The position numbers were made by a program, and so were the translations under genes. Under the pieces are notes generated by a model that was not told where the DNA came from, searched no databases, and saw nothing but the letters and a program-made list of their open reading frames with translations. A stretch of 25,009 bases of DNA from a virus. The stretch lies in the IMG/VR virus record IMGVR_UViG_3300004460_001790, positions 1 to 25,009 of that record. The stretch is one strand, 5' to 3'. Shown in pieces: positions 657 to 9,770 of the stretch. How positions within the stretch are numbered: the first letter of the stretch is position 1; each line of letters begins with the position of its first letter.

Positions 657-1274
657 TTATTCCTTGGTGGGGGCGTTGTGGTTGGCGGCTGCGACGGCGT
701 TCTGACCGTCGTCCGTGGCGAGCCACAGCAGCAGCTTGGCGCGCTGCGGGGCAGTCATCTCGGAAGGGTGCGGGCGCTTGAGCGTTGCCAGCGTGGCCGA
801 CAACTCGCGCTCGCTGACCTTGAGGTCTTCGAGGGCGGTGAGAAACAGGCGCGCCTCAGTAGCGGACCACGTCGACGGCGTCGTCGTCGGCGCGGGGCGG
901 CCTGCGACCTGACCGTCGTCGTCGGCGCTAGCGATGCCGCACGCGGTCTGGAGCGAATACCGGCGAAGGTACGTGAGCGCGCTTCCGATGGCCTGCGCGG
1001 ACTCGTCCTTCGCGCGGGCAGTCATGGCGCCGCAGTCCAGCACCTCACCGGACACGTGACGCAGCACGGTGCGGACGCTGACGTTCGCGCCTTCGACGCT
1101 AACCAGCTGCTGGTACGCGATGCCATGGTCGTGCAGCGGCTGCACAGCCTCAATGACCGACGCAAGGTCGGCGTAGTTGGAACGGAAGGCCGGATTGACC
1201 TTGCCCTTGCGGGCCGGTCCCATCTCGGACTGGGCCTTGCAGAGTGCGGCGTTGAGTTCAGGGGTGTCGTCCAT
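657..1274 (-). CDS. erf: ERF-family single-strand annealing protein
   Basis: 205 residues. The N-terminal half carries the ERF signature: NPAFRSNYADLASVIEAV (about 27-44), a hydrophobic strand around GIAYQQL (51-57), and the helix AIGSALTYLRRYSLQTACGIA (95-115). ERF proteins are Rad52-like single-strand annealing proteins that promote homologous recombination and genome circularisation or concatemer formation. The C-terminal part (about 120-205) is variable and Ala/Thr-rich, as is normal for the family. The start at 1274 is preceded on the minus strand by CAGGAGTAAACC, a strong ribosome binding site. The gene sits between the lipoprotein-like gene (3-base gap) and the SSB-tailed gene (4-base gap), so the three are surely one transcript. 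Confidence 0.88.
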   Translation of the reverse strand: MDDTPELNAALCKAQSEMGPARKGKVNPAFRSNYADLASVIEAVQPLHDHGIAYQQLVSVEGANVSVRTVLRHVSGEVLDCGAMTARAKDESAQAIGSALTYLRRYSLQTACGIASADDDGQVAGRPAPTTTPSTWSATEARLFLTALEDLKVSERELSATLATLKRPHPSEMTAPQRAKLLLWLATDDGQNAVAAANHNAPTKE

Positions 1275-1277
1275 GGT

Positions 1278-1421
1278 TTACTCCTGAGCGGCGGCGGTGA
1301 GGTATTCAGCGAGGCGGACGCCGGGCGTGCCGTAGGGCTGGCTGGCGCTGCAGCCTGCGACCTGGCACAACGTGGTGACCGACGCGATGAAGATGGCGGT
1401 GACGATGATCCGTGCGAGCAT
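1278..1421 (-). CDS. Small putative lipoprotein or signal-peptide protein, first gene of the leftward operon
   Basis: 47 residues. A longer reading from 1496 is open, but the start at 1421 is chosen because it follows CAGGAGAACAAC and lies just downstream of the predicted leftward promoter. The product begins with a short basic N-terminus (MLAR) and a hydrophobic segment (about residues 5-18). It then has VAGC (21-24), which fits the lipobox pattern with Cys24 as the lipidated residue, and a short polar tail. The protein is therefore probably exported and lipid-anchored. I do not recognise the family. Its place ahead of recombination genes differs from the late lysis location of Rz1-type lipoproteins, so a role in the host envelope early in infection is possible but unproven. 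Confidence 0.5.
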   Translation of the reverse strand: MLARIIVTAIFIASVTTLCQVAGCSASQPYGTPGVRLAEYLTAAAQE

Positions 1422-1464
1422 GTTGTTCTCCTGTCGAGTCAGCGGAAGCCGACCCGACACGACC

Positions 1465-1493
1465 TCTATACACCCCCGGTTACCGGGCGGCAA
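1465..1493 (-). promoter_or_regulatory. Leftward sigma70-type promoter for the recombination operon
   Basis: On the minus strand TTGCCG (1493-1488) is followed after exactly 17 bases by TATAGA (1470-1465). Each box matches consensus at four of six positions. The predicted transcript would start near 1458, about 37 bases before the lipoprotein-like start codon. The spacer contains the 13-bp palindrome described separately, which suggests direct repression. Confidence 0.5.
1475..1487. promoter_or_regulatory. Palindromic operator CCCGGTTACCGGG
   Basis: Perfect 6-bp arms, CCCGGT and ACCGGG, flank a single central T. The palindrome fills the spacer between the -35 and -10 boxes of the leftward promoter, so a bound dimer would block RNA polymerase. 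The natural candidate for the binder is the HTH protein encoded 78 bases away. A half-site-like CCGGT recurs at 1538-1542, inside the candidate rightward promoter. Confidence 0.55.
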
Positions 1494-1528
1494 CATGTAG
1501 ACCCCTACTTGTTGTGCTTTTTTTGTTC

Positions 1529-1558
1529 TTGACGTTTCCGGTCGGTATCTGCTACATG
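1529..1558 (+). promoter_or_regulatory. Candidate rightward promoter for the HTH regulator and early operon
   Basis: TTGACG (1529-1534, five of six consensus positions) is followed after 18 bases by a weak TACATG box (1553-1558). The TGC just before that box gives the TGn of an extended -10. A transcript from here would begin at about 1565, which is also the best start codon of the regulator. The -10 match is poor, so this is a modest call. A T7 run lies just upstream at 1518-1524. Confidence 0.35.
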
Positions 1559-1564
1559 GGGGCC

Positions 1565-1786
1565 ATGCTTTCCGACTTGCTCACGTCCTACCGCGAATCG
1601 GCGGGCCTCGGCTTCAGCGAGGCCGCGCGCTTGCTTGCCGTGTCCCGCGTCACCCTCTGGCGCTATGAACAGGGCAAGCGGACGCCCAGCTATGACCAGC
1701 TGCGGGCCATGCTTGAGGCCTACAGGTGCGCGCCGTCTGAATGCGAGGCCGCCGAGGCTGCGCGCCGGAAGTCGGTGCGGCTTTGA
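1565..1786 (+). CDS. Short XRE-type helix-turn-helix regulator
   Basis: 73 residues. The helix-turn-helix is clear: FSEAARLLAVSRVTLWRYE (about 17-35) followed by QGKRTPS, the typical loop after the recognition helix in Cro/CI-like proteins. There is no C-terminal peptidase or oligomerisation domain, so it is unlikely to be a RecA-cleaved repressor and is closer in size to Cro. An alternative ATG nine bases upstream (1556) would add MGA, but the G-run at 1557-1562 lies between the two. The gene faces the leftward recombination operon across a 143-base region with a palindrome in the opposing promoter, which suits a lysis-lysogeny or timing switch. It is the first gene of the rightward early operon and shares a TTGA stop-start overlap with the next gene. 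Confidence 0.75.
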   Translation: MLSDLLTSYRESAGLGFSEAARLLAVSRVTLWRYEQGKRTPSYDQLRAMLEAYRCAPSECEAAEAARRKSVRL

Positions 1787-2235
1787 GGCTGTTCATTGAC
1801 CTTGAGCCCATCGGCAAGGGCCGGCCTCGGGCGGCATCGCGTGGCGGACATGCCGTGATGTACACGCCGAGCAAGACGGCCGCGTGGGAGGACGCCGCGT
1901 GCGTCAGCATCATGCGGCAGGCGCGCGGCCAGGTCGTGCGCGGCCCGGTGGCGGTCAGCATCGTCGCCGTGTTCAGCCGCACCAAGGCGCAGCTTGCGTG
2001 TGACCGCCTGGGCAACGTGAAAGCCGGCGCCGAGCGCCTGTGGCACACGAAGAAGCCCGACGCCGACAACGTGGTCAAGATCGTGCTGGATGCGCTGGTG
2101 CGTGCTGGCGTGCTTGAGGACGACGCGACCGTCGTCTACCAGACCATCCGTAAGGTCATTCGTTCTATCGACGAGCGGCCCGGCATCTACATCGACATCA
2201 CCACCGTCGACCATTCACCCCAGAGAGAACAATGA
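1783..2235 (+). CDS. rusA: RusA-family Holliday junction resolvase
   Basis: 150 residues when started at the TTG at 1783, which overlaps the TGA of the regulator gene. The N-terminal RLFIDLEPIGKGRPRAA matches the usual start of RusA proteins, whereas the upstream ATG at 1741 would add an untypical leader. The catalytic motif KPDADN (91-96) is followed by K99, LDAL (102-105) and LEDD (111-114). D93, D95, K99 and D114 have the same spacing as D70, D72, K76 and D91 of E. coli RusA. RusA is a dimeric endonuclease that cuts four-way junctions made by recombination and replication forks, helping to debranch phage DNA before packaging. It works logically with the ERF protein across the divergent region. 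Confidence 0.9.
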   Translation: MRLFIDLEPIGKGRPRAASRGGHAVMYTPSKTAAWEDAACVSIMRQARGQVVRGPVAVSIVAVFSRTKAQLACDRLGNVKAGAERLWHTKKPDADNVVKIVLDALVRAGVLEDDATVVYQTIRKVIRSIDERPGIYIDITTVDHSPQREQ

Positions 2236-2513
2236 ACATCAGAGAAGCTCGCGCGAAGCTGATCGCGCAAGAACAGGAGCTGCACATGCTCCAGCTGGAA
2301 GCCGGCGCGATGCGTCGAGCTCTGACGGCGTGTCACGAAACCGAGCTCGTGTTGCGCAAGCACATCGAGCAGCTGCAGCACGCGCTGAATGAGATTCAGC
2401 CTGCAGTCATCAAGGTCCGTACCGAGCTGGCCCGCGTCGGTGGCCTTGACGCGCTCGCCCACTACGACGCCGCTCGCGGGTTCGCGTCTGAGGTGTACGA
2501 TGATGTCGAGTGA
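2232..2513 (+). CDS. Small coiled-coil protein of unknown function
   Basis: 93 residues. The start overlaps the RusA stop as ATGA, with AGAGAGAAC as the ribosome binding site. Residues about 3-65 are a charged helical stretch with Leu/Ile/Met at heptad-like spacing (AKLIAQEQELHMLQLEA and HIEQLQHALNEIQPAVIKV), so a coiled coil is likely. The last 20 residues are acidic. No enzymatic motif is visible and I do not recognise the family. It is one of a run of small genes between RusA and the helicase whose ends overlap. Confidence 0.7.
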   Translation: MNIREARAKLIAQEQELHMLQLEAGAMRRALTACHETELVLRKHIEQLQHALNEIQPAVIKVRTELARVGGLDALAHYDAARGFASEVYDDVE

Positions 2514-3401: not shown

Positions 3402-4735
3402 CCGGCGCCACACGCGCGGGCGGCCTGCACACGCCGCACCCCGAAGACGCCTGGGAAACCGAGATCGTCAATCAGGCGTACCGCATCGCCATCGCCATGC
3501 GCAAGAAGAACAAGCACGTGCCGTTGCCAGCCACGACCATCAAGCCGTGGCGGTTGCACATGAGCGGCCACGGGTACGTCATTCCACGATACGCGCCGAC
3601 GCTGGCTTCACCCGTTGTCGACGAAACCGTGGCGCCGCCTGCGGTTCACTTGGGTGCGCATCCGGGGCTCACGCTCCGACCGTACCAGCGGGATGCGTTG
3701 GCCAAGTGGTGGGCACACAAACACGGCGTCGTCGTCGCGCCGTGTGGTGCGGGAAAGACCGCCATCGGACTGACGGCCGTGCTTCACCTGGACACGCCGG
3801 CGCTGGTGTTGGTTCACACCCATGACCTGTTGCGACAGTGGCAAGTCCGCGCACATGCCCTGGACATCCCCGTGCAGGTTGTGACCGAGGGAAAAGGCCC
3901 GGCGTCCGCGCGTCTGGTCATCGCCACGATGCAGACGTTGGCTGGCTGGCCGCACGACCAGATTGAGGGCTGGGGCGAGCAGTTCGGCCTCGTCATTGTG
4001 GACGAGGCGCACCACGTGCCGTGCACGACGCTGACCGACGTGCTGTACGCGTTGCCCGGCCGGTACAGGCTGGCGTTGACAGCCACGCCCGAGCGCGCCG
4101 ACGGGCTCACGCCCATTCTGCTGGGGCACATGGGGCCGGTTCGCGCCGAGGTCAGCCGGCAAGCGCTAATCGAGGCGAACGCCATCATCATCCCCGAGGT
4201 GCGGCGCATCTCGACGGGCTGGGCGCCGAAAGAGGACGCCGACTATACCGAGATGGTCACGTCCAGCACCGAAAGCGCGAAGCGAAACGGGCTGATCGTG
4301 GCGCTGGCCTCAGCTGCTGTCGCAGATGGGCGGACGGTTCTGGTGCAGACTGAGCGCGTCGAACACGTCGAACAGCTCGGGCGCATGCTTCAAGCGGTCG
4401 GCGTCGGCTCTGCGGCTGTTCATGGAAAGCTATCCGGCAAGGTCCGCGCGGCGCTGCTAGAATCGGTGGCCTCGGGCATGACGCCCGTGCTCATCGCCAC
4501 CCAGTTGGCCGACGAAGGCCTTGACCTGCCACGGCTGGACACGCTGATACTCGGCGTCCCCCAGCGCAACGCGGCCCGCCTTGAGCAGCGCGTGGGGCGC
4601 ATCGCACGGCCTGCGCCCGGCAAGCTGGGCGCTGTCGTGTACGACTTGTGCGACGGCGGCAAGGCGGAGCGGCTTTGGTACCAGCGCCGGAAGGTCTACC
4701 GAATGATGGGCTGCCCTGTGGTGGAGAATGAATGA
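3398..4735 (+). CDS. Superfamily 2 DEAD/DEAH-type DNA helicase
   Basis: 445 residues. An N-terminal 90-residue extension precedes the Q-like motif LRPYQRDAL (93-101). The Walker A motif is APCGAGKT (114-121), Walker B is VDEAHH (201-206), motif III is LTATPER (227-233), and the second RecA lobe ends with LEQRVGRIAR (395-404) carrying the arginine finger. The order and spacing fit XPB/UvsW/Ssl2-like SF2 helicases, which use ATP to translocate on duplex DNA and remodel forks or recombination intermediates. Size is normal for phage members. The start overlaps the preceding gene (ATGA at 3398). The stop overlaps the ATG at 4732, the start of the overprinting frame, and lies just after the methyltransferase ATG at 4728. 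Confidence 0.88.
   Translation: MTGATRAGGLHTPHPEDAWETEIVNQAYRIAIAMRKKNKHVPLPATTIKPWRLHMSGHGYVIPRYAPTLASPVVDETVAPPAVHLGAHPGLTLRPYQRDALAKWWAHKHGVVVAPCGAGKTAIGLTAVLHLDTPALVLVHTHDLLRQWQVRAHALDIPVQVVTEGKGPASARLVIATMQTLAGWPHDQIEGWGEQFGLVIVDEAHHVPCTTLTDVLYALPGRYRLALTATPERADGLTPILLGHMGPVRAEVSRQALIEANAIIIPEVRRISTGWAPKEDADYTEMVTSSTESAKRNGLIVALASAAVADGRTVLVQTERVEHVEQLGRMLQAVGVGSAAVHGKLSGKVRAALLESVASGMTPVLIATQLADEGLDLPRLDTLILGVPQRNAARLEQRVGRIARPAPGKLGAVVYDLCDGGKAERLWYQRRKVYRMMGCPVVENE
4720..4735 (+). promoter_or_regulatory. Ribosome binding site shared by two overlapping genes
   Basis: GGTGGAG at 4720-4726 is followed by ATG 4728 (methyltransferase frame) after one base and by ATG 4732 (alternate frame) after five bases. 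Only the second spacing is normal. ATG 4732 also forms the ATGA overlap with the helicase stop, the coupling used at most junctions in this operon. The arrangement AATGAATGAGC would let one initiating ribosome choose between frames. Confidence 0.6.
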
Positions 4736-5600: not shown

Positions 5601-6512
5601 ATGGATACCTGGAGCGTCGCCATCAGCGACCATGCACGCACGTCCGCATGTGTCCAGCATGTGCTTCCATGGCTGGAACTAGTCGAGCTGCTCACCGTCC
5701 CGACGGTCCACCGCGGCGAGAAAAACCGGCTGACGGCGTGGAGCCCGGTACAGCTGCGGCCCGGTGCCGACGGCAAGGTCACGCGCGCAAACGCCAACGT
5801 GGTCAGCGTGTCGTGCCTCGTGTACGACTTCGATCAGGGCGAGCCCGTCGAGCGCGTGGACGCGCTGGCCTACGGGTGGACGGCCATTGTGCACACCTCG
5901 TGGAGCCACGCGCCTGCGCATCCAAAGGTGCGGCTGATTCTTCCGCTAGCCGATCCTTGCGCTGCTGACCGTTGGCCCGACGTGTGGGGCGCTGCGGCCC
6001 GCTGGGCGGCCTCTGTTGGCTTGACCGTCGACAAGTCGACCAAGGACCCATCCCGGCTCTTCTTCTTGCCTGCAACGCCTCCGGACGCGACGCGTCGTCG
6101 TCAGTTCTTCGCGTCATCGCAGGAGGGCCAGATGCTGACGTGGCGCCACGTGTTGACCTTGTACCCGGCGCCTGTCGAGGCCCGGCGGTTCGCTCCGGTC
6201 AAGTCCGCGTTGAGTCGAGGGCTACCCGGGCAGGACTTGACCTCGGTTCGCTGCGACAAGGCGGCGCGCATCATCGCGCACCGCTGCCGCGAGCTCGCCA
6301 CCACCTCCGAGGGCGGCCGGAATCTCCGGCTGTTCCGGACAACTGCTGCAGCCGCGCAGCTTCACGCGGCTGGCGTTCTGGACCTCCAGAGCGCCTTAGA
6401 CGACATCACGCAGGCGGCACGGGCGGCAGGGCTCGGGGACCGTGAGATCGCAACCACCATCGCCAGCGGAGTCACCCGCGGCAAACAGGACGGACCATGG
6501 CAGTTCAGCTGA
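5601..6512 (+). CDS. Primase/primase-polymerase-like replication protein
   Basis: 303 residues. The N-terminal half resembles archaeo-eukaryotic-type primases found with VapE helicases: VYDFDQG (74-80) gives the acidic DxD-like motif, then HTSWSHAPAHPKVRLILPLADP (98-119) gives the conserved His and Arg strand. VDKSTKDPSRLFFLPATPP (143-161) gives the Asp and Ser-Arg motif that typically closes the active site. The C-terminal third is helical. The predicted role is primer synthesis at the phage origin. The start at 5601 follows TGGAGAGGCACC. The gene overlaps the VapE-type helicase gene by 16 bases, so the two are likely coupled and act together. Family assignment rests on motif pattern, not on a search; the fold is likely, full catalytic competence less certain. 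Confidence 0.6.
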   Translation: MDTWSVAISDHARTSACVQHVLPWLELVELLTVPTVHRGEKNRLTAWSPVQLRPGADGKVTRANANVVSVSCLVYDFDQGEPVERVDALAYGWTAIVHTSWSHAPAHPKVRLILPLADPCAADRWPDVWGAAARWAASVGLTVDKSTKDPSRLFFLPATPPDATRRRQFFASSQEGQMLTWRHVLTLYPAPVEARRFAPVKSALSRGLPGQDLTSVRCDKAARIIAHRCRELATTSEGGRNLRLFRTTAAAAQLHAAGVLDLQSALDDITQAARAAGLGDREIATTIASGVTRGKQDGPWQFS

Positions 6513-7723
6513 ATCAGGACGAGAAGCTCCGCGAGCGCGTGCGCGCCCAGCTCCGATACCCCAAGGGTGCAGTGGAGCGAGGCGACGACGGCACGCGCAC
6601 GTACCTCAAGCCTCCGCACGCCACCCTCGCGAACCTCGAGGTCATCATCGGGCAGGACCCCGCGTTCTACCCGTTCCTCGGGCTGAACGAGTTCACGAGT
6701 CAGATCACGTGGAACGGCCAGCCGTTGACCGACGCAACCGAGACTGCCATCAACCTGCAGGTACAGGCCCTGTACGACCTACACGTGTCGACCGAGCGGT
6801 GCCGCGAGATGATCGCCTACGTGGCGAACCAGCACCCGTACCACCCCGTGCGCGACTGGCTGAATCACCTGGTATGGGACGGCGTGCCCCGCCTTGACAC
6901 GATGCTGCACGTGTACGCCGACGCCGCGGACACCCAGCTGCATGCGGCGATGGGCCGGAAGTTCATGACGGGCGCGGTGGCCCGCATCTACCGGCCCGGG
7001 TGCCAGCTCGACACAACGCTGATTCTGGTCGGCAGCCAGGGCGTGAAAAAGTCCAGCCTGTTTCGCGCGCTGGTCGAAGACCCCACGTGGTTCTCGGACA
7101 CCACCATCGACCTAAGGACGAAGGATGTGTACCAGCAGCTGCAAGGCGTGTGGCTATACGAGGTGGCCGAGCTCGCTGCGCTGCGCGGGCGCGACGCCGA
7201 GTCTACGAAGGCCTTCCTGACCTCAAGGTGCGACCGGTACCGCCCGCCATACGGCCGAAACGTCGTCCGGTGGGACCGGCAGGTCGCATTCGTCGGCACC
7301 ACCAACGAGGCCGAGTTCCTCGACGACAGCACCGGCGCGCGGCGGTTCTGGCCGGTGCGCGTAGGAGCTCCCGACGTGGCCAGCATCGCGCGCGACCGGG
7401 CGCAGCTCTGGGCCGAGGCCGTCGAGGCTTACAAGGCCGGCGCGGAGTGGTGGCTGACGCCCGAGCAGGACGAGGAGCTGACCGACAGCCAGCAGACCTA
7501 CCAGCGGGCGGACAGCTGGGGCGACATCATCGGTGAGTACCTGGCGCGTGAGGGACAGTCCGCGACCGTGCGCGACATCATGGCAAGCGCCCTCCAGCTC
7601 AATCCGACCCACCAAAGCAAGGGCGCCGCGATGCGTGTGGCTTCGATTCTGTCCGGACTCGGGTACTCAAAGCGCCGGGTGACCGAGGGCGGCCAGCAGG
7701 TCATGCGCTGGTCAAAGTCGTGA
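6497..7723 (+). CDS. VapE/virulence-associated-E-type P-loop helicase
   Basis: 408 residues. The N-terminal 110 residues are a variable domain. The motor domain follows: NHLVWDGVPRLDTML (123-137), the P-loop LVGSQGVKKSSLF (177-189), the block YEVAELA (221-227), FLTSRCDRYRPPYGR (240-254), FVGTTNEAEFLDD (265-277) and the terminal signature STGARRFWPV (278-287) with its arginines. These are hallmarks of the VapE family, predicted superfamily 3-like replicative helicases of phages and satellites. A lysine (K184) occupies the position before the catalytic lysine that is usually glycine in GxxGxGKS. The C-terminal 60 residues look like a winged-helix DNA-binding domain. The gene ends directly against the repeat-rich candidate origin, consistent with a cis-acting initiator or helicase. 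Confidence 0.82.
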   Translation: MAVQLNQDEKLRERVRAQLRYPKGAVERGDDGTRTYLKPPHATLANLEVIIGQDPAFYPFLGLNEFTSQITWNGQPLTDATETAINLQVQALYDLHVSTERCREMIAYVANQHPYHPVRDWLNHLVWDGVPRLDTMLHVYADAADTQLHAAMGRKFMTGAVARIYRPGCQLDTTLILVGSQGVKKSSLFRALVEDPTWFSDTTIDLRTKDVYQQLQGVWLYEVAELAALRGRDAESTKAFLTSRCDRYRPPYGRNVVRWDRQVAFVGTTNEAEFLDDSTGARRFWPVRVGAPDVASIARDRAQLWAEAVEAYKAGAEWWLTPEQDEELTDSQQTYQRADSWGDIIGEYLAREGQSATVRDIMASALQLNPTHQSKGAAMRVASILSGLGYSKRRVTEGGQQVMRWSKS

Positions 7724-7725
7724 CG

Positions 7726-7797
7726 AGGTGTGTAAGGTGTGCAAGCGGGAACGAGCAAACGCCGACTTTCGGCCGGTTTTGCACACCTCACACACCT
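7726..7797. repeat. Inverted repeat 1 (19-bp arms, 34-base spacer)
   Basis: The left arm 7726-7744 (AGGTGTGTAAGGTGTGCAA) is complementary to 7779-7797 at 18 of 19 positions. Each arm is itself two 9-bp units. The 34-base spacer contains a small GCCGA/TCGGC hairpin (7761-7773) followed by a TTTT, which might terminate early transcripts weakly. It begins two bases after the VapE stop codon. Confidence 0.75.
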
Positions 7798-7859
7798 GCA
7801 CACGCCTTTCTATACTCCCTATATCTACTACTACTACTTCTTCTTCTTCTAGGTATGAA

Positions 7860-7925
7860 AGGTATGCAAGGTGTGTAGAAGGTAGGTAGGGCGCTGGTTA
7901 TTGACCTTGCACACCTTGCACACCT
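7860..7925. repeat. Inverted repeat 2 (16-bp arms, 34-base spacer)
   Basis: The left arm 7860-7875 (AGGTATGCAAGGTGTG) is complementary to 7910-7925 at 15 of 16 positions. The 34-base spacer has the same length as in inverted repeat 1, and the arms share the same core unit, so the two structures appear to be copies or binding arrays for the same protein. Confidence 0.75.
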
Positions 7926-7933
7926 CTGACGAC

Positions 7934-7961
7934 TTGACGCCACCGACAGAACCGATACCAT
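7934..7961 (+). promoter_or_regulatory. Candidate promoter for the packaging and late operon
   Basis: TTGACG (7934-7939) is followed after 16 bases by TACCAT (7956-7961), with five and four of six consensus matches. Transcription would start near 7968, about 35 bases before the small terminase ATG. It lies just downstream of the second inverted repeat, so the repeat-binding protein could also regulate it. Confidence 0.35.
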
Positions 7962-8002
7962 GCCCACACCGCCTGTTGTCGTAGTGCGGGCCAGAGAGAC
8001 CG

Positions 8003-8452
8003 ATGGCCAGACACCCCGAGACAGCACCGACCGCGACCATGCTTGAGGCCATCCGCCTCATTGTCGAGGAGGGCATGCGCATCAACAAGGTGTGCGAGGC
8101 CGTGGGCATCAACTACTGCACGTACAACGACTGGACGCACAACACGGTATACCCGCCGGCTCTCAAAGCCGCGAAGGAAGCGCACCAGGAGGCCATCTGG
8201 AACCGACTGCGGGCAGCGGGGCAGATGGCGGCCGAGACTCTCATCGAGGTCTGCACGAATCCCGACGAGAAAGGCTCGGTACGCATCATGGCGGCAAACA
8301 GCATCCTCGAAAAGGGCGGTTACATCAAAGCCGACCAGACCGCGGCGGCGGCGCAGCCCTACCAGACGCGTGACGAACTCGTCCAGGCGCTGAGTGCCAT
8401 CCCCGCGGACGTGCTGGCCGAAGCGCTGTCGAAGGTCGGGAAAGATGGTTGA
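8003..8452 (+). CDS. terS: Terminase small subunit
   Basis: 149 residues. The N-terminal half is a helix-turn-helix of the small terminase kind: ATMLEAIRLIVEEGMRINKVCEAVGINYCTYNDW, where CEAVGINYCTYNDW supplies turn and recognition helix. It is followed by a helical oligomerisation region (AAKEAHQEAIWNRLRAAGQMAAETL). Small terminase binds pac or cos DNA and hands it to the large subunit. The call is supported by the immediately following large-subunit gene, which overlaps by eight bases. AGAGAGACC before the ATG at 8003 is a moderate ribosome binding site. The C-terminal DELVQALSAIPADVLAEALSKV is a predicted helix pair that may contact the large subunit. Confidence 0.8.
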   Translation: MARHPETAPTATMLEAIRLIVEEGMRINKVCEAVGINYCTYNDWTHNTVYPPALKAAKEAHQEAIWNRLRAAGQMAAETLIEVCTNPDEKGSVRIMAANSILEKGGYIKADQTAAAAQPYQTRDELVQALSAIPADVLAEALSKVGKDG

Positions 8453-9770
8453 CTTTGCGCGCGTGAGCATGACCCTGCAGGAGCGGCGGTTGGAGCTGTT
8501 CCGGCCGAGCCCCGTGCTGGCAAAGTTCATGCGCGACGACTCAAGGCGCATCCTCGTCCGAGCGGCGAATCGCGTGGGCAAGACGAAGCACGCCGCAGCA
8601 AAGCTGGTGGGCGAGATGCTGGCAAACCCAGGACGGCGATATCGAGCGGTGGCGGTCACGTATCAGCAGTCCATCGCTGTCATCGGAAATTATCTACGAG
8701 AGTTCATCCCCCCGGCCGAGCTCGCGGCCGGGTGTCGGTACACGCTTGAGAACGGCTGGACGCACCAGCTGGTGCGCCTGCGCAACGGCACGACGTGCGA
8801 GATGAGGTCACAGGACCAGAGCGCCCTCGCGCATGCGGGCAGCGACCTCGACGGCGTGTGGTGTGACGAGCCGCCCCCGTCGGACATCTTGCTCGAGGGC
8901 CTCACGCGCACGATGGCGAGGAACGGATGGGTGTGGGTGACCATGACGCCCATCGGCCGGCCCATCGATTACCTGCGCGCCGTTGTCGAGGACCCCGAGT
9001 CTGAATGGATTGAGTACGTGGCGCCGCTCAGCGCGGACAACTGCCCGTGGTACTCGCGTCCGCAAGTCGACCGTTGGCTGACCGAGGCTCGGGCTTTCCC
9101 CGACAGCTACGAGCAGAAAATCAACGGCGCGTGGGAGGGCATCACCAGCGAGCGCACGTTCACCGGGTTCGACTCGTCCTGCCTCATCACCGAGGCGGAC
9201 CCCATGCCGCGCGGGTGCCGCATCGGCGTAGGCATCGACCACGGCGAACACGCGGGCAGTCAGGTTGCCGTGCTGGCGGCGTGGAACAGCCAGGGCGTGT
9301 GGATTCTGGACGAGGCCGTCTCCGAGCAGTCCACCACGCCGACGCAAGACGCCGTCGCCATCCGCCAGATGCTGCTGGCCAACGGCCTCGACGTTCACCA
9401 GGTGGACACGTGGGTGGGCGACGTGAACAGCGCGGGCAAGCTCGGCGCGGGCTTCAAAATCAACGAGATTCTGGCGCTGGCTCTCGCGCGCGAGGCCGGG
9501 CACGCCAAGGTTGGGATCAAGATTGGCACGCCGGTCAAAGGGCCGGGCTCTGTGGACCTTGGAGAGAAGCTGCTGAACGCGGGCTTCCTGCGCCGACAGG
9601 TCAAGGTGCACCCGCAGTGTGAGGCGGTCATCAAGGGCCTGCGCCACGCTCGTGGGGGGCGCGCTGACGAAGACCTCAAGCACGCGCTGGACGCCGTGCG
9701 ATACGTCACCTACGCCCCGCTCACCGCCATGAACACCAACCGCTCCAGCGCCTTGCGCTACCAGCTCTGA
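8445..9770 (+). CDS. terL: Terminase large subunit
   Basis: 441 residues from the ATG at 8445. ATPase part: the Walker A-like AANRVGKTKHA (40-50), Walker B VWCDEPPP (138-145) with the catalytic Glu, and the coupling motif VTMTP (165-169). Nuclease part: GVGIDHGE (261-268) with the first acidic residue of the RNase H-like fold, a middle motif near WVGDVNSAG, and a C-terminal acidic motif in EDLKHALDAVRYVTYA. Together these package DNA into the prohead and cut it. Length is normal. A second in-frame ATG (8469) exists but lacks a ribosome binding site. The gene overlaps the small subunit by eight bases and is followed after eight bases by the portal gene. Confidence 0.9.
   Translation: MVDFARVSMTLQERRLELFRPSPVLAKFMRDDSRRILVRAANRVGKTKHAAAKLVGEMLANPGRRYRAVAVTYQQSIAVIGNYLREFIPPAELAAGCRYTLENGWTHQLVRLRNGTTCEMRSQDQSALAHAGSDLDGVWCDEPPPSDILLEGLTRTMARNGWVWVTMTPIGRPIDYLRAVVEDPESEWIEYVAPLSADNCPWYSRPQVDRWLTEARAFPDSYEQKINGAWEGITSERTFTGFDSSCLITEADPMPRGCRIGVGIDHGEHAGSQVAVLAAWNSQGVWILDEAVSEQSTTPTQDAVAIRQMLLANGLDVHQVDTWVGDVNSAGKLGAGFKINEILALALAREAGHAKVGIKIGTPVKGPGSVDLGEKLLNAGFLRRQVKVHPQCEAVIKGLRHARGGRADEDLKHALDAVRYVTYAPLTAMNTNRSSALRYQL

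Follow-up and report, generated by a model that had tools for sequence, protein, structure and literature searches.

The locus raises the question of whether an array of short repeats at nt 7726-7925 serves as the replication origin of the virus carrying it, as had been proposed in the original prediction. The window, that is, the whole stretch analysed, was a virus record of 25,009 nt. The array was located in the 279 nt between the genes for a VapE-type helicase and a small terminase subunit (Table 1), directly after the primase-like and helicase genes as predicted, and the end of the primase-like ORF overlapped the start of the VapE gene. The Pfam search of the primase-like ORF was without a match. 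The contig also encoded RusA and, on the minus strand, an Erf-like annealing protein.

A unit scan of the window detected ten 9-bp units with no more than 2 mismatches to AGGTGTGCA, arranged in the predicted order of forward, reverse, AT-rich tract, forward and reverse; they started at nt 7726, 7735, 7851, 7860 and 7869 on the plus strand and at nt 7780, 7789, 7797, 7908 and 7917 on the minus strand. Both inverted repeats described earlier (18/19 and 15/16 matches) exist in the sequence, and their quoted arms are indeed separated by 34 nt each; in strict unit register, however, the inner gaps were 36 nt (7744-7779) and 30 nt (7878-7907). Since the second pair had been trimmed to 16 bp, the 34/34 equality depends on the register chosen, and equal 34-base spacing was rejected as a hard rule. 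A single unit was not rare in the contig (11 matches with 1 mismatch versus 7.4 expected). The cluster score per 200 bp was 7 at the array versus 5 or less in the rest of the contig, and 12 Markov-simulated 25-kb contigs likewise gave scores of 5 or less. The significance of the array thus lies in clustering and order, not in rarity of the unit. An Rfam search gave no match, and no intrinsic terminator was found.

Table 1. Features of the putative origin and its flanking genes in the window
Feature	Position (nt)	Strand	Evidence
Primase-like ORF (phage primase families)	5601..6512	+	PHROG 9765 DNA primase, E 3.6e-19
VapE-type AAA+ initiator helicase, 408 aa, C-terminal winged helix	6497..7723	+	Pfam PF05272, E 8e-78
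Codons of predicted winged-helix DNA-binding domain, residues 340-408	7514..7720	+	DSSP of model
Left outer units, 2 x 9 bp (AGGTGTGTA AGGTGTGCA)	7726..7743	+	
Left inner units, 3 inverted copies; third degenerate, 1 bp overlap	7780..7805	-	
Predicted melting zone: AT-rich tract without G, containing (CTA)4(CTT)4	7806..7850	none	
Right inner units, 3 x 9 bp (AGGTATGAA AGGTATGCA AGGTGTGTA)	7851..7877	+	
Right outer units, 2 inverted copies	7908..7925	-	
Small terminase subunit gene, outside the origin	8003..8452	+	PHROG 2538, E 2.4e-7

The origins of SaPIs and E. coli PICIs, which have been defined experimentally, match the array in position and plan (PMC6092414, PMC7581432). In the staphylococcal islands and in E. 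coli EcCICFT073, the rep helicase gene is followed directly on its 3′ side by the origin, in which an AT-rich region is flanked by two iteron sets, and a primase is encoded nearby (PMC6092414, PMC7581432); a rep-ori of this plan from an E. coli PICI drives plasmid replication (PMC6092414). Likewise, the first unit in the window began 3 nt past the VapE stop, immediately 3′ of the initiator gene, and the iteron sets at nt 7726-7805 and 7851-7925 flanked an AT-rich region. The unit sequences, however, differ between the islands and the window, the likeness being one of plan. Furthermore, SaPIs and PICIs are satellites, PICIs being without a tail or full structural gene set of their own, whereas the contig carried genes for a large terminase and a tail tape-measure protein and therefore looks like a tailed phage. 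Based on the SaPI/PICI precedent, the array was read as an origin: nt 7726-7925 very probably represent a SaPI/PICI-type replication origin in a tailed phage, recognised by the phage's own VapE helicase. Cumulative GC skew, which had been suggested as a check, was of no help, with a maximum at nt 9672, opposite in sign to the minimum usual for an origin.

The VapE protein was assigned to the VapE/PriRep helicase family by its Pfam domain and by its structure. An AlphaFold2 model (pLDDT 92.6) gave as its best solved match in Foldseek the VapE-like initiator PriRep1 with dsDNA (PDB 7pds; TM 0.80, E 2e-27), which shares the same fold across the whole protein although identity was only 23% over the structural alignment; the profile match to 7pds had an E of 4e-97. 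In the SaPI Rep protein, the C-terminal domain recognises iterons directly downstream of its own gene (PMC7581432). The D5-type helicases SCCmec Cch2 and SaPI5 Rep similarly combine an iteron-binding C-terminal domain with an array directly downstream (PMC7581432), but belong to a helicase family different from that of VapE, and the match of the VapE model to the SaPI5 primase-helicase (7ola) was weak (TM ~0.4-0.5). A further likeness, by description, is to satellite phage P4 with its alpha protein, ori and crr, where the phage likewise encodes a primase-helicase initiator and carries the repeat site cognate to it (PMC6092414). The units are likely bound by the VapE helicase rather than by the primase.

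Two close relatives were compared with the window. The array was kept in L005, whose VapE was 97% identical to that of the window. In L004 (82% identical), the same layout was present in the same place with the unit AGGYTGGCA; every clear copy there read AGGTTGGCA or AGGCTGGCA, and units matching AGGTGTGCA with 1 mismatch or fewer were absent. The unit copies of L004 have changed together, as expected for binding sites of one protein.

Between the two iteron sets, nt 7807-7850 had an AT content of 68% in a contig of 35% AT, the highest of all 44-mers, and the G-free run at nt 7805-7851 was the only one of at least 30 nt in the contig. The (CTA)4(CTT)4 repeat was located at nt 7824-7850, and its minus strand, (AAG)4(TAG)4, recalls DnaA-trio elements. 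The repeat was present in L005 but missing from L004, and the DnaA-trio reading was therefore set aside. AT-richness was also rejected as a universal mark, since in the L009-type family, mostly proteobacterial, the tract alternates between purine and pyrimidine and is not AT-rich. Alternation exceeded 0.7 in 22 of 45 tracts. A large family comprising L027, L028, L035, L138, L161 and relatives has such an alternating tract (CACGCGCACAC...), likewise not AT-rich, which might form Z-DNA.

VapE loci were collected from IMG/VR, GTDB genomes and six annotated phages and reduced to 111 non-redundant loci at an 80% identity cut. In 80 of them, the 350 nt downstream of the VapE stop held the strongest 9-mer cluster found in the locus, and the mean cluster score was 8.2 there versus 3.1 elsewhere in the same loci; all six annotated phages possessed an array. 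Among the other 31 loci, several had a cluster that was shifted a little, that followed a VapE gene with a broken frame, or that fell in the coding tail. L093, for instance, has a 12-copy array ~350 nt before the VapE stop, apparently inside the VapE coding tail. Relatives that keep the genes without the repeats had been named as evidence against an origin; this pattern was seen in one distant VapE clade (L067, L083, L098 and L115), in which no array was detected near the gene. The VapE proteins of this clade have a conserved HWGKPEQMR-type motif.

Across loci, the spacing of units on the same strand had its peak at 9 bp. The usual plan consisted of an outer unit, a gap, three inverted units, a tract of ~75 nt, three units, an equal gap and an outer inverted unit. 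The full plan was seen in 45 loci, and in 34 of these the gaps on the two sides differed by no more than 1 bp, compared with 9.9 expected by shuffling. Dozens of unrelated phages shared the layout while their repeats had a different sequence. The earlier suggestion of equal spacing needs correction for the window, where it is register-dependent, although equal gaps are common in relatives; the likely binder is the helicase, not the primase. In the reverse direction, exact 3-unit patterns of two unit types were scanned over the viral collection, giving 67 loci, 59 of which had VapE on the expected side with its stop no more than 500 nt away. Of the other eight, two had a full array where the stored DNA ended, and in the remaining six the patterns lay inside or overlapped open reading frames.

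Specificity was analysed in 42 related VapE loci with the unit AGGTTRGGA or AGGTRTGGA, whose proteins were ~30% identical to the VapE of the window. At one wing position, Tyr was found in all 18 AGGTTRGGA loci, versus Phe, His or Ser in all 24 AGGTRTGGA loci; the next best alignment column separated the two unit types at 0.86. This residue had been picked by a search of all columns and was then tested on held-out but related proteins, where it predicted the unit type of 23 of 23 loci, compared with 19 of 23 for the nearest relative. A tree computed with the C-terminal domain left out showed no fewer than 8 switches of unit type, 5 of which are required by well supported branches, and the residue was concordant in every case. 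A subset of AGGTTRGGA loci with another wing fell outside the one-residue rule. Once helicase distance was accounted for, unit distance still tracked the distance between C-terminal domains (partial r 0.28; maximum of 200 permutations 0.11). In the model of the window VapE, the wing strands span residues 390-397 and 400-407 (DSSP), and the specificity position maps to the last of them, around residues 402-404, the exact residue varying with where the alignment gaps are placed.

Comparison of the loci thus supports the candidate origin: it establishes the array, its place 3′ of VapE, the concerted change of its units with the protein and, in the related family, the tracking of the unit by a wing residue. 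It seems fairly probable that many VapE initiators of tailed phages and prophages share a mirror-symmetric origin with fixed outer-to-inner gaps, and that the units co-evolve with the wing, partly under a one-residue rule. If this is true, the origin specificity of a VapE phage would be readable from its protein, because units would follow the wing by a simple recognition rule; such a protein-DNA specificity rule is offered here for VapE origins. The array would provide a candidate origin for a large group of tailed phages that is for the most part uncharacterised. The plan of the origin, which has been described as unique to PICI satellites, would thereby be extended to tailed phages; the surveyed phages contradict that uniqueness. 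A literature search, mainly of open papers, found no description of iteron origins beside VapE in tailed phages.

We infer a mechanism that runs from unit binding through ring assembly, melting and the direction of synthesis to origin activity. The C-terminal winged helix of VapE, encoded immediately upstream, would bind the 9-bp units. As the half-sites on either side of the AT-rich tract approximately mirror each other, two helicase rings would assemble on them face to face; the rings would then melt the intervening tract and be loaded onto its unpaired strands, and the neighbouring primase would prime synthesis both ways.

Other functions of the array were considered. Packaging sites often adjoin the small terminase gene, and here that gene began 77 nt downstream; the array could accordingly be a pac or cos site bound by the small terminase encoded at nt 8003. 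Across relatives, however, no link to a small terminase gene was found: the gene following the array encoded a Holliday junction resolvase, a late activator, an HNH endonuclease, a Q-like antiterminator or a tail protein, the constant neighbour was VapE upstream, and unit changes tracked a VapE residue. With downstream genes so variable, a packaging site is highly improbable. The same variability counts against an operator, at which VapE or another regulator would govern how the terminase and structural genes downstream are transcribed. An operator would fit the presence of two sigma-70-like promoter matches within nt 7600-8100 (0.1 expected) and the position of the array in the gap ahead of the late genes, but the symmetric plan around the tract and the SaPI/PICI precedent favour replication, making an operator in place of an origin quite unlikely. 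Autoregulation could nevertheless accompany origin function.

A minisatellite or chance repeat without function might be suspected because the same 9-mers occur in tandem in phages lacking VapE, as coding repeats or one-way arrays. The inverted order of the units, a layout conserved while the unit sequence changed, and the link of the array to VapE make this extremely unlikely.

Some arrays of related units were observed in other settings. The window unit itself failed as a search key: three copies of AGGTGTGNA were found in 12 loci, only one of which had VapE, and those inspected proved to be either repeats within coding sequence or tandem arrays running one way. In L012, L017 and L018, each contig had one-way tandem AGGTGTGAA arrays at several sites, and its stored DNA did not include VapE. 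L132 (nt 4146-4433) combined two unit variants in a single array, with GGTGCGTCC outer and GGTGTGTCC inner. In three VapE-less loci, L217 (nt 779-1684, minus strand), L226 (nt 5920-6678, plus strand) and L241 (nt 1910-2296, plus strand), tandem AGGTTRGGA units lay inside ORFs and were translated as PNLPNLPNLP. The L217 ORF encoded a replication initiation protein (PHROG 9474, E 1.2e-14), that of L226 matched a replication initiation protein weakly (E 0.0086), and that of L241 preceded a DnaB-like helicase gene (PHROG 19, E 7.8e-42). The in-ORF units of these three loci resemble in their placement the origin of lambda, which lies inside gene O.
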